A DNA stretch of 64,000 bases. Source: Sulfurovum sp. Lineage in GTDB: Bacteria; Campylobacterota; Campylobacteria; Campylobacterales; Sulfurovaceae. How positions within the stretch are numbered: position 1 is the first letter of the stretch; each line of letters opens with the position of its first letter. The notes below the pieces were generated by a model that had not been told where the DNA came from, searched no databases, and saw only the letters and a program-made list of their open reading frames with translations. Below are positions 22,914 to 46,438 of the stretch, in pieces. The position numbers were made by a program, and so were the translations under genes. Where the stretch lies: positions 1-64,000 of the forward strand of contig JALTVI010000068.1 in NCBI GenBank assembly GCA_027049035.1, given 5' to 3'.

Positions 22914-22938
22914 CCTACTTTTTTTAGAAAAAAGTAGG
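22914..22938. terminator. Perfect 11-bp hairpin after purL
   Basis: CCTACTTTTTT-TAG-AAAAAAGTAGG. A perfect AT-rich stem with a 3-nt loop, 13 bp after the purL stop. It could end the purL transcript or act as processing signal; no U-tract follows. Confidence 0.55.
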
Positions 22939-22947
22939 CAAAAAATC

Positions 22948-23037
22948 GGTCACTTCGCAAGTCTGCTTCGATGACTCCGGCGCCGTGCTTCGCACATATG
23001 GGCGCCTACGCATCGGCAGACCCGGTGCTCAGTGACC
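22948..23037. repeat. Nested inverted-repeat element between purL and purH
   Basis: Four nested stems in order: GGTCACT/AGTGACC (outer), GTCTGCTTCGATG/CATCGGCAGAC, GGCGCC/GGCGCC, and the tip GTGC-TTC-GCAC. The 90-bp unit is GC-rich compared with its flanks. It may be a structured RNA in the purH leader or a mobile palindromic element. No second copy was seen in the window. Confidence 0.75.
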
Positions 23038-23068
23038 AAAGACTAAATTGTATGAAAAGTGAGAGAAA

Positions 23069-25781: not shown

Positions 25782-25867
25782 TATTTTATAACAACACTCC
25801 TGCACCTTGCAAACGGCAGAGCCGCCCTTCGGGTTGGGTGCAAGGTTTGTCGCATTGTCATAAAATA
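25782..25867 (+). ncRNA. Candidate structured leader RNA, copy 1 (cbpA-hspR leader)
   Basis: An outer stem of 13 bp with one mismatch (TATTTTATAACAA / TTGTCATAAAATA), a second stem ACCTTGCA/TGCAAGGT, then mini-hairpins CGGC-AGA-GCCG and CCC-TTC-GGG. It ends 45 nt before the cbpA ATG, downstream of the promoter. A related element in the same sense lies in the pta leader. Core words GCAAACGGCA, GCCGCCCT, GGGTTG and TTTGTCGC are shared. Confidence 0.65.
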
Positions 25868-40776: not shown

Positions 40777-41958
40777 CTATATTTCGTCTATCACCTTTTC
40801 GCACTGCCGTACAATCTCAAGCTCTTCGTTGGTCGGTACGACAAGCAGTGTGACCCTGCTTGTTTGTGTTGAGATCATACCGCCACTCTCCACAGCCTTC
40901 TTATTGGCTTCAGTATCCAGCTCCACTCCCATCCATTCCATCTTGTCACATACCATTGAACGCACCTTTGATGCATGCTCCCCTATGCCGCCGGTAAAGA
41001 CAACAGCATCGACACCGCCCATGGCTGCCGTGTAGGCACCGATGTACTTTTTGATTCTGTAAACATACATCACAAGCGCAAGTTTGGCGTTCTCATCCTT
41101 CTCTTCTGCACGTACAGTGACATCGCGCATGTCATTGGTGCCGCAGATGCCTTTCAAGCCGCTGGCTTTGTTGAGCATTGTCTCGATCGCTTCAATCTCA
41201 AATCCGTTGCGTACGAGGTAGGGGATGATCGCCGGGTCCATATCGCCGCTGCGGGTACCCATCATCAACCCTTCAAGCGGGGTCATCCCCATGGAGGTAT
41301 CGATGCTCTTCCCGTAAGCGACGGCTGCTGCGCTGGCACCGTTGCCAAGATGCAGTGTGATCAACCGCAGTGCTTCAAGCGGTTTGCCCACTATTTTTGC
41401 CGCCTCTTTGGCTACATAGCTGTGCGAGGTGCCGTGAAAACCGTAGCGCCGTACGGCATATTTCTCTTTAAGCTCCAGCGGAATGGCATAATGGTAGGCA
41501 TGTGCGGGCATACTCTGGTGAAAGGCGGTATCGAAGACTGCAATCTGTGGAATAGTGGGGTAGTGGGCCGCAAATGCGTGAATCGCTTCGAGATTGGAGG
41601 GGTTGTGCAGCGGTGCCAGAGGGATGACACGTTCAATCGTTGCAATCACTTCAGGAGTGATCTTTACCGGCTTGGAGAAGTGCTCTCCTCCATGCACCAC
41701 ACGATGGCCGATGGCATCGAGGATATGAAACTCCTCCAGAATACGCTCACTTTTGAAAAGTTCAACAAGCAGAGCAAGTGCTTCATGGTGATTGGCAATC
41801 TGTTTGGAGACGATGTGTGTTTCTTCAGCATACTGCAGCGTTGCCCTGCTCTGCGCCTCACCGATGCGTTCAATGTGCAGCGAGGCAACACTCTTTTGTG
41901 CAACATAGTACTGGCACTTCAGTGAAGAGCTTCCTGAATTAATGACAAGAATTTTCAC
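40777..41958 (-). CDS. ackA: Acetate kinase
   Basis: Interconverts acetyl phosphate + ADP and acetate + ATP. 393 residues with 'ILVINSGSSSLKCQYY', 'GHRVVHGGEHF', 'HLGNGASAAAVAYGKSIDTS' and 'VFTGGIGEHASKVR'. It begins at a GTG that overlaps the pta stop (GTGA), so it is translated by coupling from pta. Confidence 0.98.
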   Translation of the reverse strand: MKILVINSGSSSLKCQYYVAQKSVASLHIERIGEAQSRATLQYAEETHIVSKQIANHHEALALLVELFKSERILEEFHILDAIGHRVVHGGEHFSKPVKITPEVIATIERVIPLAPLHNPSNLEAIHAFAAHYPTIPQIAVFDTAFHQSMPAHAYHYAIPLELKEKYAVRRYGFHGTSHSYVAKEAAKIVGKPLEALRLITLHLGNGASAAAVAYGKSIDTSMGMTPLEGLMMGTRSGDMDPAIIPYLVRNGFEIEAIETMLNKASGLKGICGTNDMRDVTVRAEEKDENAKLALVMYVYRIKKYIGAYTAAMGGVDAVVFTGGIGEHASKVRSMVCDKMEWMGVELDTEANKKAVESGGMISTQTSRVTLLVVPTNEELEIVRQCEKVIDEI

Positions 41959-44051
41959 ACTCTAACCTTTGACTGTGCCTGAATGGCGGTGATGGCGACG
42001 GTGTTGACGATATCATCCACACTGCATCCGCGGCTCAGGTCGTTTACCGGAAGTCTCAACCCCTGCAGTACAGGACCGATGGCAAGTGCACCGGTGGCAC
42101 GCTGAACGGCTTTGTAGGTGTTGTTGCCTGTATTGAGATCCGGGAAAATGAATACTGTGGCATGTCCGGCCACTTTGCTGTCGGGCAGTTTTTTCCTGGC
42201 CACCTCCTCATCGATGGCGGCATCGTACTGGATGGGACCCTCAATGAGCAGGTCGGGGCGCATCTGCTGTGCGAGCTGTGTTGCCCTGCGTACCTTCTCT
42301 ACATCGGGCCCGTGGCCGGAACTGCCTGTGGAGTAGGAGAGCATCGCCACCTTTGGATCGATGCCAAACTGTTTGGCTGTATCGGCAGAAGAGATGGCGA
42401 TCTGTGCAAGCTCTTCGGCGGTAGGATCGAGGTTGACCGCACAGTCGCCGTAGACCAGCACGCGGGTATCCAGACACATGAAAAAGACCGATGAGACGAT
42501 CTTCACTCCGGGTGACGTTTTGATGATCTGCAGGGCCGGGCGGATGGTGTCAGCAGTCGTGTGTGTCGCACCCGAGACCATACCGTCGGCCATCCCCTCA
42601 TAGACCATCATCGTTGCAAAGTAGCTAAGGTGCGCCATGGCATCTCTGGCAGCATTCAGTGTGAGCCCTTTTGCTTTTCGCATCTCATAGAAGCGCTGTG
42701 CGAAGCTCTCCTGCATGGCTGCATCGTTCGGATCGGCAATCTGCACGCTGCCAAGGTCGATACCAAGCGCCTTACAGCGATGCAGGATCTGCTCTTCATT
42801 CCCAAGCAGTGTGATGTCGGCAATGCTGCGATGGGTGATAATCTCCGCTGCTCTCAGAATGCGTTCATCGTCACTTTCGGGGAGCACGATGCGCTGTTTG
42901 TCACTGCGTGCCTTTTCGACAAGGCGGTAGAGAAACATCGTGGGTGTCAAAATCTCTTCAGGCTGTTTTCTAAAAAGCGAGCGCAGCTTCTCCTTGTCTA
43001 CCGCTTCGTCAAAGAGCGCTTTTGCCAGTGTGATTTTTTGCGTACTGCCTGTTGCGATACGCGGAGGGATCCGCTCCATTCTTAGGGCGGTTTGGTAACT
43101 GTCGCTTTCGACAAGCATCATCGGAATGGTATGCGCTTCGAAATCCTCTATGAGTGCCATGATGGCACTGTGCGGTTCGATGCCGCCGCTAAGCACGATG
43201 GCTGCAATGTTGGGATGGTTCCTGCCGTAGTAGGAGAGCAGAGAGAGCATGATGATCTCGCTACGGTCGCCGGGTACGATGACCAGGTCATGGTTTTCGA
43301 TGTGTGCAAGAAAGTTTTCCGCTCCCATGGCGGCAATCTTGTACCCATGGACAATGCGCTGCAGGTCTTTTGGCTCTCCTGCAAGCGGTTTTGCATCCAG
43401 ATGCGCCTGGATCTCACTGAGGGTAGGCCTGTCGAGCTGCGGATGTTCGGGAATGAAAAAGGCATTGAGGTTATGCTTCTCTTTTTCGAATCTCTCTTTG
43501 AGGCTTTTCAACGTTTTCGGGTTACAGCGGTTGACGAACGATGCAAGGTGGTAGCACCCCTCCTGACGGATGATCTCGTCTGTTATCTGCAGCTCCTGTA
43601 ATATCTGCTCTGTACTCTTGCCGTGGGCGTTGAGGACGGGAATGTAGGCAGTACCCAAATTCCTTGCAATGGCAAGATTGATATCGAAATCGAAGAGGTG
43701 GGAGAATGCTTCACGGGGATAGCCTTCTATAAGCACGAAGTCGTACGCTTCATGCAGCGTGCTGAGCTTTCCGATGAGGGCTTCGAGGAGCTCTTCCTGT
43801 CTGTTTTGTGCAAAGGCCTCGACATACCTGCCTGCTTCAAATCCTACACACGCCTCATATGCTATCTTTAGGCCAAAGTGCTCGAGCATAAAGGTGACAC
43901 TCTCATCCTCTTTGCTACCGTCGGCGATGATAGGACGGAAAAAGGCGACCTTTTCGTAGTGCCCTTTGAGCATCTCCATGATGCCGATGGAGACGAGCAG
44001 GCTTCCCGAACGCGGTTCGACAGGTGCAACGTAAATACTCTGATGCTGCAT
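41955..44051 (-). CDS. pta: Phosphate acetyltransferase (long type)
   Basis: Interconverts acetyl-CoA and acetyl phosphate. 698 residues: an N-terminal P-loop/BioD-like domain ('IYVAPVEPRSGSLLVSIGIM'), a DRTGG domain (about 215-330), and the catalytic domain ('RIVLPESDDERILRAAEII', 'GLTLNAARDAMAHLSYFATM'). AAGGAG precedes the ATG. Its leader holds the second copy of the candidate structured RNA. Together with ackA it links acetyl-CoA and acetate. Confidence 0.97.
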   Translation of the reverse strand: MQHQSIYVAPVEPRSGSLLVSIGIMEMLKGHYEKVAFFRPIIADGSKEDESVTFMLEHFGLKIAYEACVGFEAGRYVEAFAQNRQEELLEALIGKLSTLHEAYDFVLIEGYPREAFSHLFDFDINLAIARNLGTAYIPVLNAHGKSTEQILQELQITDEIIRQEGCYHLASFVNRCNPKTLKSLKERFEKEKHNLNAFFIPEHPQLDRPTLSEIQAHLDAKPLAGEPKDLQRIVHGYKIAAMGAENFLAHIENHDLVIVPGDRSEIIMLSLLSYYGRNHPNIAAIVLSGGIEPHSAIMALIEDFEAHTIPMMLVESDSYQTALRMERIPPRIATGSTQKITLAKALFDEAVDKEKLRSLFRKQPEEILTPTMFLYRLVEKARSDKQRIVLPESDDERILRAAEIITHRSIADITLLGNEEQILHRCKALGIDLGSVQIADPNDAAMQESFAQRFYEMRKAKGLTLNAARDAMAHLSYFATMMVYEGMADGMVSGATHTTADTIRPALQIIKTSPGVKIVSSVFFMCLDTRVLVYGDCAVNLDPTAEELAQIAISSADTAKQFGIDPKVAMLSYSTGSSGHGPDVEKVRRATQLAQQMRPDLLIEGPIQYDAAIDEEVARKKLPDSKVAGHATVFIFPDLNTGNNTYKAVQRATGALAIGPVLQGLRLPVNDLSRGCSVDDIVNTVAITAIQAQSKVRV

Positions 44052-44105
44052 GGTACTCCTTATTTAGACTCTCACTTAATACATCTGAACAAAATCTGCT
44101 GTAAA

Positions 44106-44188
44106 GGTTTCATTCGATGGCGACAAAGGAGCACTCAACCCATAGGGCGGCTTGCCGTTTGCGACTGCCAGAGCTATCGAATGAAACC
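44106..44188 (-). ncRNA. Candidate structured leader RNA, copy 2 (pta-ackA leader)
   Basis: A perfect 13-bp outer stem GGTTTCATTCGAT / ATCGAATGAAACC. Read on the minus strand the interior shows GCAAACGGCA, the mini-hairpins CGGC-AA-GCCG and CCC-TAT-GGG, GGGTTG, and TTTGTCGC, in the same order as the cbpA leader copy. It ends 54 nt before the pta ATG. It also contains CTCCTTT, complementary to the pta ribosome site AAGGAG. Confidence 0.65.
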
Positions 44189-44216
44189 GTAGATGGCTTT
44201 TAAAAGATATCGATTT

Positions 44217-44225
44217 ATTCTATCA
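44217..44225 (-). promoter_or_regulatory. Extended -10 promoter for pta-ackA
   Basis: On the minus strand TGATAGAAT, an extended -10. It would start a leader of about 155 nt that includes the structured element. Confidence 0.5.
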
Positions 44226-44247
44226 TAAAAGTACAGAAAGCAAAAGG

Positions 44248-44253
44248 TATAAT
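44248..44253 (+). promoter_or_regulatory. Probable -10 box for the RelA/SpoT-domain gene
   Basis: GGTATAATG. The ATG at 44252 used by the ORF track lies inside this box, so the true start is more likely the ATG at 44285. Confidence 0.5.
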
Positions 44254-44284
44254 GTCACACAACATCCACATTTTCAGGACATCC

Positions 44285-46438
44285 ATGCACTCCTACATCG
44301 ATATTTTCAATTTTACCCCGCCTGCGCGTTTCAAACCGCTTGAGTTACTCGAAGATGAGGTGCGTCAGCGAATGGCGGAGCAGGGGGTGGAGAGGAAGCT
44401 CAGTGAAGAGGAGTCCGAACGCTTTGTTGAAAAGATGATGGCGTGTATGGGAGGCTATTACCGTCTTGTCGGCTTGAATGCACCTTTGTCGCCATCGCGT
44501 GAAACCTCCGTACCGATGGATGGTACTGCCGTTGAACCCAACGGCCTGCTGCCGCGTTTTGCCGGTGTGCTTACAGCCTACTTCAAGAGGCTTGCTTCCC
44601 TGCCTGAGGGCAACAAGGAGATCGCCGTACTGCAGGCTTCGGGAGTGACGACTATCAAGGTGCGCTACAAATACACCGACAGTGTCATCAAAAAGCTTGT
44701 CAAGCTGGGACTGCGCGATATGTCGGTACTGGACGATCCGATAGGTGTCTTTCTCAAAGGTGGTGCGCTGCATGACCTTATCGGGATGCAGTTTGTCTGC
44801 TCGAGCCCCTATGAGCGCGAGTGGGTCGCCAGGGCACTCTACAGCTTTTTCGAGTACGACCACCGCACCGACGATCACCTGCTCTATGGCTTTTACAGCG
44901 TCAGGCGAGAGAGCGGCTACCGTGCGTTGCACTGTGACCACACTACCTTTTATCCGCGTTTCGATGAAAGGGTGGCGAAGGATGATGTTGACAGCACTAT
45001 GTCGGTAGAAACCTACGACACTACAATGGATGACAGAGAGGTACTGAGACGTTTCAGAACGCTTTTCAATGTAGAACTGCAGCTGCACACTGCTTTTGAG
45101 AACCTCTGGGCGGGAATGGAGCATCGCAACAGCTACAATGTACAGGCAAAAGGGGCAGGGCGCAGCGAAAAGATCGCCGTGCAGTGGAATATGCTCTCCG
45201 ATGCCATGAAAAACCTTGAAGCCCAGTTTGAACGGCTGCAGGTCGACACCGAACAGGCACGTTTTGAGGTGGGGTACCGCCACGGCTACACCTTCGTTGC
45301 CAGTGTGCTCAAGCGTCTGGATGAAAAGGCGTACGATACCTACCGTGAGTTTGTCGCCAGAAGCGAGTCGCTCGAGACGCTGCTGCACCACCACGAAATC
45401 TCCAGACAGGCGTATGTGGAGGAGTCACTTGCCACGGCAAAGGAGATAGAAGTGGTCGCGGCCACACAGAGCTACCCCACACTCAAGATTCTCTTTTTGA
45501 TGCAGAGCGCCTTCATCCGCTACGGTCTTGCCAACCACCGCAACTACTTCAACTTCGAAGATATCTACCGTTTCGTTCAGGAGGCGCTGAAGTACTACCT
45601 ATCCATCTACGATATGCTTAAAGCCGATGAGAGCATCTACAAGAGCAATCTGCTAAAAATCATCGTGATTCTGCGCTATCAGCAGCTTGCACAGCAGTAC
45701 GGTCTGGGGCTTATCCATACGGGTGAGGGGGTGATGAGTGAAGCGGAGCGGAAGCTTGCCAACTACGATACCAACTTCGCCCTTTTCAAGGACGTGCTCG
45801 AACAGCTCAACGAACTTACACCCGAAGAGCTGAGCGAGATCAAAGCCGACGATGCCGCATTTTTGAAGATGGTACACCGTACCGACGTGCTGGCGCGTGA
45901 ATGGGAGCTGCTGGTCAACGAACCTCCTAAAGAGCATGCGCGTATCGTAAGAGAGGTAGCACGTTTCAGAGCGCGCTACATTACCCCCGAACTTGCCGAA
46001 CACTTCGAAACGCTGCTGGCGCACAACAAGATCAAAAACGTCAGCTATGTGGTCAAGTTCTACACCACGCTGTTGTGGCACGGGCTGATTCTGCCGCTTG
46101 ACGCATTGCGGCAGATCATCCGTTTCTCCGCCTACGACAAGATAAAGACCAGTGATCTTTTTTACTATGAGCTTGCAGCCTATAAATTCCTTGTGGTAGA
46201 AAGGTGTGAAAGCCTTTCGGAGTGTCGGGAGGAGAAAGAGAACCGCCCCATGAGTGCGCGAAGAGGGGCACATTTTGAGGATTTTCACCGAAAGAATATG
46301 ATACGCCAACTCTTCAAAATCTACAAGAACGAATCACGCTTTGATTTTCTGCGTGCGAAGTTCCGTTTCGAACACTTGACCGGTACGCAGTTCAAGATGG
46401 ACCACTTCAGCGAGAAGTTGAGCAGCACTGTCGCATAA
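44285..46438 (+). CDS. Large RelA/SpoT-domain protein, no HD hydrolase domain
   Basis: 717 residues. Between about 110 and 290 lies a RelA/SpoT nucleotidyltransferase-type domain: 'TTIKVRYKYTDSVIKKL' (G-loop-like), 'LHDLIGMQFVC', 'ESGYRALHCDHTTF' and 'NVELQLHTAFENLWAGMEH'. There is no HD hydrolase domain before it and no TGS or ACT domain after it. About 400 helix-rich residues follow that I do not recognise. Some catalytic-type positions differ from classical RelA: Q where R is usual after DLIGM, and H where R is usual in VELQLHT. It may make (p)ppGpp or a related alarmone, or be a degenerate regulator. The start is chosen downstream of a TATAAT box. The ORF track extends 11 codons further. 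Confidence 0.8.
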   Translation: MHSYIDIFNFTPPARFKPLELLEDEVRQRMAEQGVERKLSEEESERFVEKMMACMGGYYRLVGLNAPLSPSRETSVPMDGTAVEPNGLLPRFAGVLTAYFKRLASLPEGNKEIAVLQASGVTTIKVRYKYTDSVIKKLVKLGLRDMSVLDDPIGVFLKGGALHDLIGMQFVCSSPYEREWVARALYSFFEYDHRTDDHLLYGFYSVRRESGYRALHCDHTTFYPRFDERVAKDDVDSTMSVETYDTTMDDREVLRRFRTLFNVELQLHTAFENLWAGMEHRNSYNVQAKGAGRSEKIAVQWNMLSDAMKNLEAQFERLQVDTEQARFEVGYRHGYTFVASVLKRLDEKAYDTYREFVARSESLETLLHHHEISRQAYVEESLATAKEIEVVAATQSYPTLKILFLMQSAFIRYGLANHRNYFNFEDIYRFVQEALKYYLSIYDMLKADESIYKSNLLKIIVILRYQQLAQQYGLGLIHTGEGVMSEAERKLANYDTNFALFKDVLEQLNELTPEELSEIKADDAAFLKMVHRTDVLAREWELLVNEPPKEHARIVREVARFRARYITPELAEHFETLLAHNKIKNVSYVVKFYTTLLWHGLILPLDALRQIIRFSAYDKIKTSDLFYYELAAYKFLVVERCESLSECREEKENRPMSARRGAHFEDFHRKNMIRQLFKIYKNESRFDFLRAKFRFEHLTGTQFKMDHFSEKLSSTVA

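Follow-up and report, generated by a model that had tools for sequence, protein, structure and literature searches.

The inverted repeat upstream of pta in this Sulfurovum sp. genome (G000, with G002 as its sister genome) was carried to its present site within an inserted segment of about 143 bp, and it is not particular to pta. The inserted unit has ends in common with the IS5 family, its fold covaries, and that fold shows a strand preference. The unit is probably an IS5-type MITE carrying a core that has been selected to fold on the + strand, most likely as RNA. MITEs are usually regarded as passive hairpins; the interior of this one covaries in the manner of an RNA, favours one strand, and has a fixed core common to different carriers. 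Do small transposons spread functional RNA modules? Covariation, strand preference and shared core together make this element a clear test case.

The features of the locus are listed below, with positions given in the window, which is the whole stretch of 64,000 nucleotides analysed.

Features of the pta locus, of the hairpin element and of two further copies in the window
Feature	Position	Strand	Details
Copy 1, solitary	25782-25867	-	covariance model score 79.6 bits; arms and P2 pairing differ from the pta copy; precedes a DnaJ-like gene
pta, phosphate acetyltransferase	41955-44051	-	PTA_PTB 2.7e-134, DRTGG, AAA_26 (Pfam)
pta ATG	44051	-	
pta ribosome-binding site	44056-44061	-	AAGGAG; AAGGGG in G002, AAAGGG in G084
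Complete insertion (family A MITE; ends decayed)	44071-44213	+	~143 bp; borders uncertain by ~4 bp
Left terminal repeat, degenerate	44076-44095	+	by-eye alignment to the 52-copy consensus
Inverted repeat, 83 nt	44106-44188		between pta (minus strand) and the divergent gene 44252-46438
P1 5' arm	44106-44121	+	sequence free, pairing kept; covariation
Internal loop, 5' strand	44122-44126	+	GACAA; GACAAA (loop and next base) in 166/193 copies
P2 5' strand	44127-44133	+	AGGAGCA; pairs with 44160-44166
P3 hairpin, three-way junction	44139-44147	+	fold and covariation
P4 hairpin, three-way junction	44148-44157	+	~80 nt instead in the long form
P2 3' strand	44160-44166	+	TGCGACT; partner of 44127-44133
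Internal loop, 3' strand	44167-44172	+	GCCAGA; 148/193 copies
P1 3' arm	44173-44188	+	pairs with 44106-44121; covariation
Right terminal repeat, degenerate	44193-44213	-	by-eye alignment to the consensus and to L104
Probable pta -10 box	44222-44227	-	TATGAT; just upstream of the insertion; putative promoter role
Remnant of another copy, 36 bp	44471-44506	-	lies within the divergent gene 44252-46438, in frame

At pta, P1 is made of 16 pairs: 13 are perfect, the fourteenth is a G.T wobble, and two more follow, so that the 16-nt arms are 94% complementary. The perfect 13-bp outer stem had already been picked out by the first-pass annotation, and the structure does go far beyond chance: not one of 200 shuffled sequences folds as well as the element. 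Across the family, P3 often ends in a GAA loop, while 103 of the 193 copies have G[CTTG]C in P4, a loop known for its stability in RNA. P2 comes in several matched versions, including GGAGC/GCGAC (with tandem G.A), GGTGC/GCACC, GATGC/GCATC, CCTTG/CAAGG and other matched pairs.

The hairpin is present in about 30–35 copies in the source genome. A BLAST search with the pta element returns 41 pieces, which resolve into some 20 short copies (83–85 nt) plus about a dozen of the long form (~163 nt), which has some 80 nt in place of P4; a covariance model recovers 25 places, the long forms being additional. The model also matches in 32 of the 78 genomes of the genus and in 15 of the 298 genomes of the phylum, the named records being metagenome-assembled genomes of Sulfurovum, Nitratifractor, Campylobacteraceae and one Sulfurimonas. 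Among the phylum matches, those in distant genera have only the three-way junction in common (E 1e-6 to 1e-3), and one of them, L241, looks false. At L236, L238, L240 and related loci of such genera (G039, G053, G308), the junction is kept while loops, arms and some terminal repeats differ. Across Campylobacterota, the core occurs in two settings, inside different MITEs and on its own in solitary copies. A search of Rfam at gathering and permissive thresholds gave nothing relevant, viral contigs, plasmids and phages held no match, and a literature search found no account of the element: the family is apparently undescribed. One site carries the long form in G000 (L026) and the short form in G002 (L109), which indicates that the P4 extension was gained or lost in place. 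A single origin of the copies between batC and batD was considered and rejected, their patchy presence on the BatD tree calling for at least five changes.

The mobile origin of the pta copy is well supported. The orthologous site is empty in G084 and G079, whose Pta proteins are 81% and 80% identical to that of the source over the N-terminal 250 residues; it reads TTTAGACTGCTGATTATTCTATCATAAAA, and G000 and G002 are about 143 bp longer at this point. Two other filled and empty pairs (L306/L287 and L022/L115) agree with insertion. Where the arms are GGTTTCA, most copies end in AATTGAAYCCTCTGAATAAT ... TTTTTCAGAGAWCTCAATT at fixed distances, and the ends of the unit at pta resemble this family A consensus. 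They are matched by the ends ATTGAACCCTCTGAAAAACC / ATAGAACCCTCTGATTAACC of L347, an IS5-family element of the relative G023 (NCBIfam transpos_IS5_4, 3.9e-64). The element is short, non-coding and multicopy within one genome, has clean empty sites in relatives, and shares its terminal repeats with an IS5-type element, all of which are traits of a MITE. A second carrier, family B, has ends GGGCACCTCTAAAAAT and readable 4-bp target duplications (TTAA, TAAA, ATAA, TTTA, ATCT); none could be read for family A, and none is visible at the pta copy, where the terminal repeats have decayed. Two loci of G023, L338 and L346, hold a MITE of about 266 bp with GGGCACCTCTAAAAAT ends and a larger interior, with GCCCGTAGGGTGGGC and TCTCACATTTGC stretches in common.

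The first-pass annotation had also offered a small mobile element inserted into an older palindrome, in which case the core alone would have moved and the arms would belong to the site. Mobility stood up to comparison; the older palindrome did not. More than 20 different arm sequences surround the one core, as this reading would have it, but the empty pta sites of G084 and G079 contain no palindrome, nor do the other empty sites. The arms travel with the core, families A and B bringing near-identical arms to unrelated sites, and at orthologous sites they change by paired substitutions. No short GGTTTCA...TGAAACC palindrome without the core occurs in the source genome. For solitary copies, the sites in relatives are too diverged for an exact empty-site comparison. 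A pre-existing palindrome is contradicted at pta by the empty sites and is hardly credible.

In the history that we favour, an IS5-type MITE some 143 bp long, itself non-autonomous, entered between the pta promoter and pta in ancestry common to G000 and G002, presumably with an IS5-family transposase supplied in trans. The core that it carries, found throughout the family, begins with P1, whose sequence is free; a fixed internal loop separates P1 from P2, and a three-way junction bearing P3 and P4 completes it. By sequence comparison, TTCTATCATAAAA around the TATGAT box is kept in G000, G002, G084, G079 and G076. Since this box lies directly upstream of the insertion, the element is expected in the pta leader transcript. 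The insertion lengthens the leader, and pta may be affected only through this longer, structured leader, for example by processing of the long stem or a change in mRNA stability.

The pattern of substitutions gives good support for selection on the fold. When the alignment is made without fitting to the structure, both partners are seen to change in 22 of 30 pairs; covarying cells number 96 vs. 18 in shuffles (0/500), and all versions with slid partners fail. At orthologous sites (batC-batD, dnaJ-like, gltX and the infB region), the arms retain about half identity, with 74–93% for the core and wider flanks, and most changed arm pairs are altered on both sides and still paired. The mismatches tolerated in P1 are asymmetric when read on the + strand, with 79 G.T against 18 A.C. 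A strand-neutral recount, in which the arms were set by their offset from the core without any model, gives 58 against 17 (p=2e-6). In that recount the excess is 85 to 1 in the two pairs next to the internal loop; among solitary copies G.T outnumbers A.C by 31 to 4. Transcription-coupled mutation can be dismissed as the cause, since G.T prevails whichever way the genes are oriented. This preponderance of G.T indicates that selection acts on the strand antisense to pta, as a single strand, and in 161 of 187 copies it is the + strand whose RNA fold is the more stable.

Could the arms stay paired without any function? Hairpin template switching, a known mutational process in palindromes, would keep repairing them, and the arms do diverge as freely as unconstrained DNA. 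This process predicts no strand preference, yet G.T exceeds A.C; it also leaves unexplained the fixed internal loop, the P2 exchange from G.A/G.A to G.C/U.A and the orientation bias of solitary copies. We consider it quite improbable as the source of the pairing.

More serious is the proposal that the active molecule is single-stranded DNA, its hairpin being recognised, for instance, by a recombinase or a single-strand transposase. Triloops of the type C(GAA)G are very stable in DNA too, as are tandem G.A pairs. The context is mobile, no promoter signature accompanies the fold, and GTAG and CGTC palindromic repeats have been reported from Sulfurovum (PMC3733652). A single-stranded DNA hairpin could moreover produce the preference for G.T over A.C, and the transcript read into pta is of the other strand; both points count against RNA. 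On the other side, the ends and target duplications are of the double-stranded, cut-and-paste type, and no regular GTAG or CGTC tag is found. Long after their insertion, solitary copies still pair in a G.T-tolerant way, and most of them precede a gene in one orientation. We regard a DNA role as rather unlikely, and the selected + strand fold is likely RNA, judging from these sequence patterns.

By 32:4, solitary copies are placed upstream of the gene to their left and, within tandem gene pairs, are antisense in a ratio of 23:4, counts thinned for shared flanks though not fully for ancestry, and based on gene calls by a simple codon-score script that makes distances approximate. MITE copies show a weak orientation bias in tandem pairs, or none. 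A further reading, which we put forward only tentatively, is that the element represents an undescribed structured RNA class of Campylobacterota which spreads in several unrelated MITEs, and whose solitary copies are then kept upstream of genes (batD, gltX, dnaJ-like, hypC), acting antisense to the gene. A self-contained sRNA gene was also considered; promoter and terminator signatures do not support it for the solitary copies. A scan of the sequence preceding the + strand fold showed no enrichment of promoter-like motifs, and solitary copies lack a terminator tail. In family A, a T run lies about 5 nt after the stem.

It had been suggested from the sequence that the element works in cis as a riboregulator: opening of P1 would free CTCCTTT on the pta strand, which would pair with the AAGGAG before the pta ATG and turn off translation of pta-ackA. 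Both segments are present and exactly complementary, CTCCTTT being the complement of the start of P2 and the two A before it (AAAGGAG on the + strand, 44125–44131). AAGGAG is a generic ribosome-binding motif, so that a 6-nt match alone is weak evidence. Alternative folds of the leader gave a divided answer. When the G000 leader is folded from its inferred start site, the blocked fold takes up about 40% of the ensemble at an energy near-equal to that of the open fold, and blocking of the 5' arm does make the ribosome site pair with CTCCTTT. If the folded stretch is extended slightly upstream, however, the blocked fold falls below 1% even in G000, and in G002, where the site reads AAGGGG, its probability is 0 at a cost of 6 kcal/mol. 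The alternative pairing is not conserved in relatives (G002, G084), and the empty relative has no such arm.

Nor is CTCC any commoner in leaders, where it occurs in 65 of 99 copies vs. 44 of 61 of those adjoining a gene end, and P2 variants without it, such as that of copy 1, are also found upstream of genes. The on/off switch at pta is therefore not supported, and we rate it very unlikely; the match looks like a coincidence. CTCCTT is a strand of the P2 helix in the family-wide core, and across the family the constraint on this segment is that of P2 and not of pairing with a ribosome site. A striking match of this kind can be the by-product of a mobile element.

How does the element compare with known systems? 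Like the bacterial MITEs NEMIS/Correia, ERIC, RUP and Nezha, it is short, lacks coding capacity and folds strongly, has inverted terminal repeats as in an insertion sequence, and has many copies adjoining genes. Unlike them, its family places the same covarying core in MITEs with different ends and in solitary copies without visible ends. The IS5-family element L347 has ends matching family A but encodes a transposase and has no core; belonging to the relative G023, it is a candidate partner. The REP-type repeats with GTAG or CGTC tags (PMC3733652) are likewise palindromic, intergenic and from Sulfurovum, but measure 20–40 nt, whereas the element has 83 nt, a complex interior and no constant tetranucleotide tag. 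Membership of that group was rejected, the tag not being constant in the flanks and GTAG(T) standing beside a few solitary copies only. Like the riboswitches and leader RNAs of Rfam, the pta element is structured and lies in a leader; unlike them, it has no Rfam match, its constraint is on the antisense strand, and it has no fixed gene partner. Rickettsia palindromic elements, from an unrelated host group and likened here by description, resemble it in that a copy can stand in frame inside a protein gene.

Such a case is found next to pta. In G002 (L151), a complete long-form copy stands in frame inside the homologue of the divergent gene, where it is read as about 70 extra residues; the source has the 36-bp remnant, and G084 has neither. 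The product of this gene (44252–46438, + strand) is a protein of 728 aa with no confident Pfam or NCBIfam match, parts of which resemble RelA/SpoT-type sequence by eye (ELQLHTAFENLWAGMEHR). Elsewhere in the window, positions 22930–23040 hold another stem-loop (GGTCACTTCGCAAGTCTGC ... GCAGACCCGGTGCTCAGTGACC) at a place where the relatives L089, L111 and L120 carry the hairpin element.
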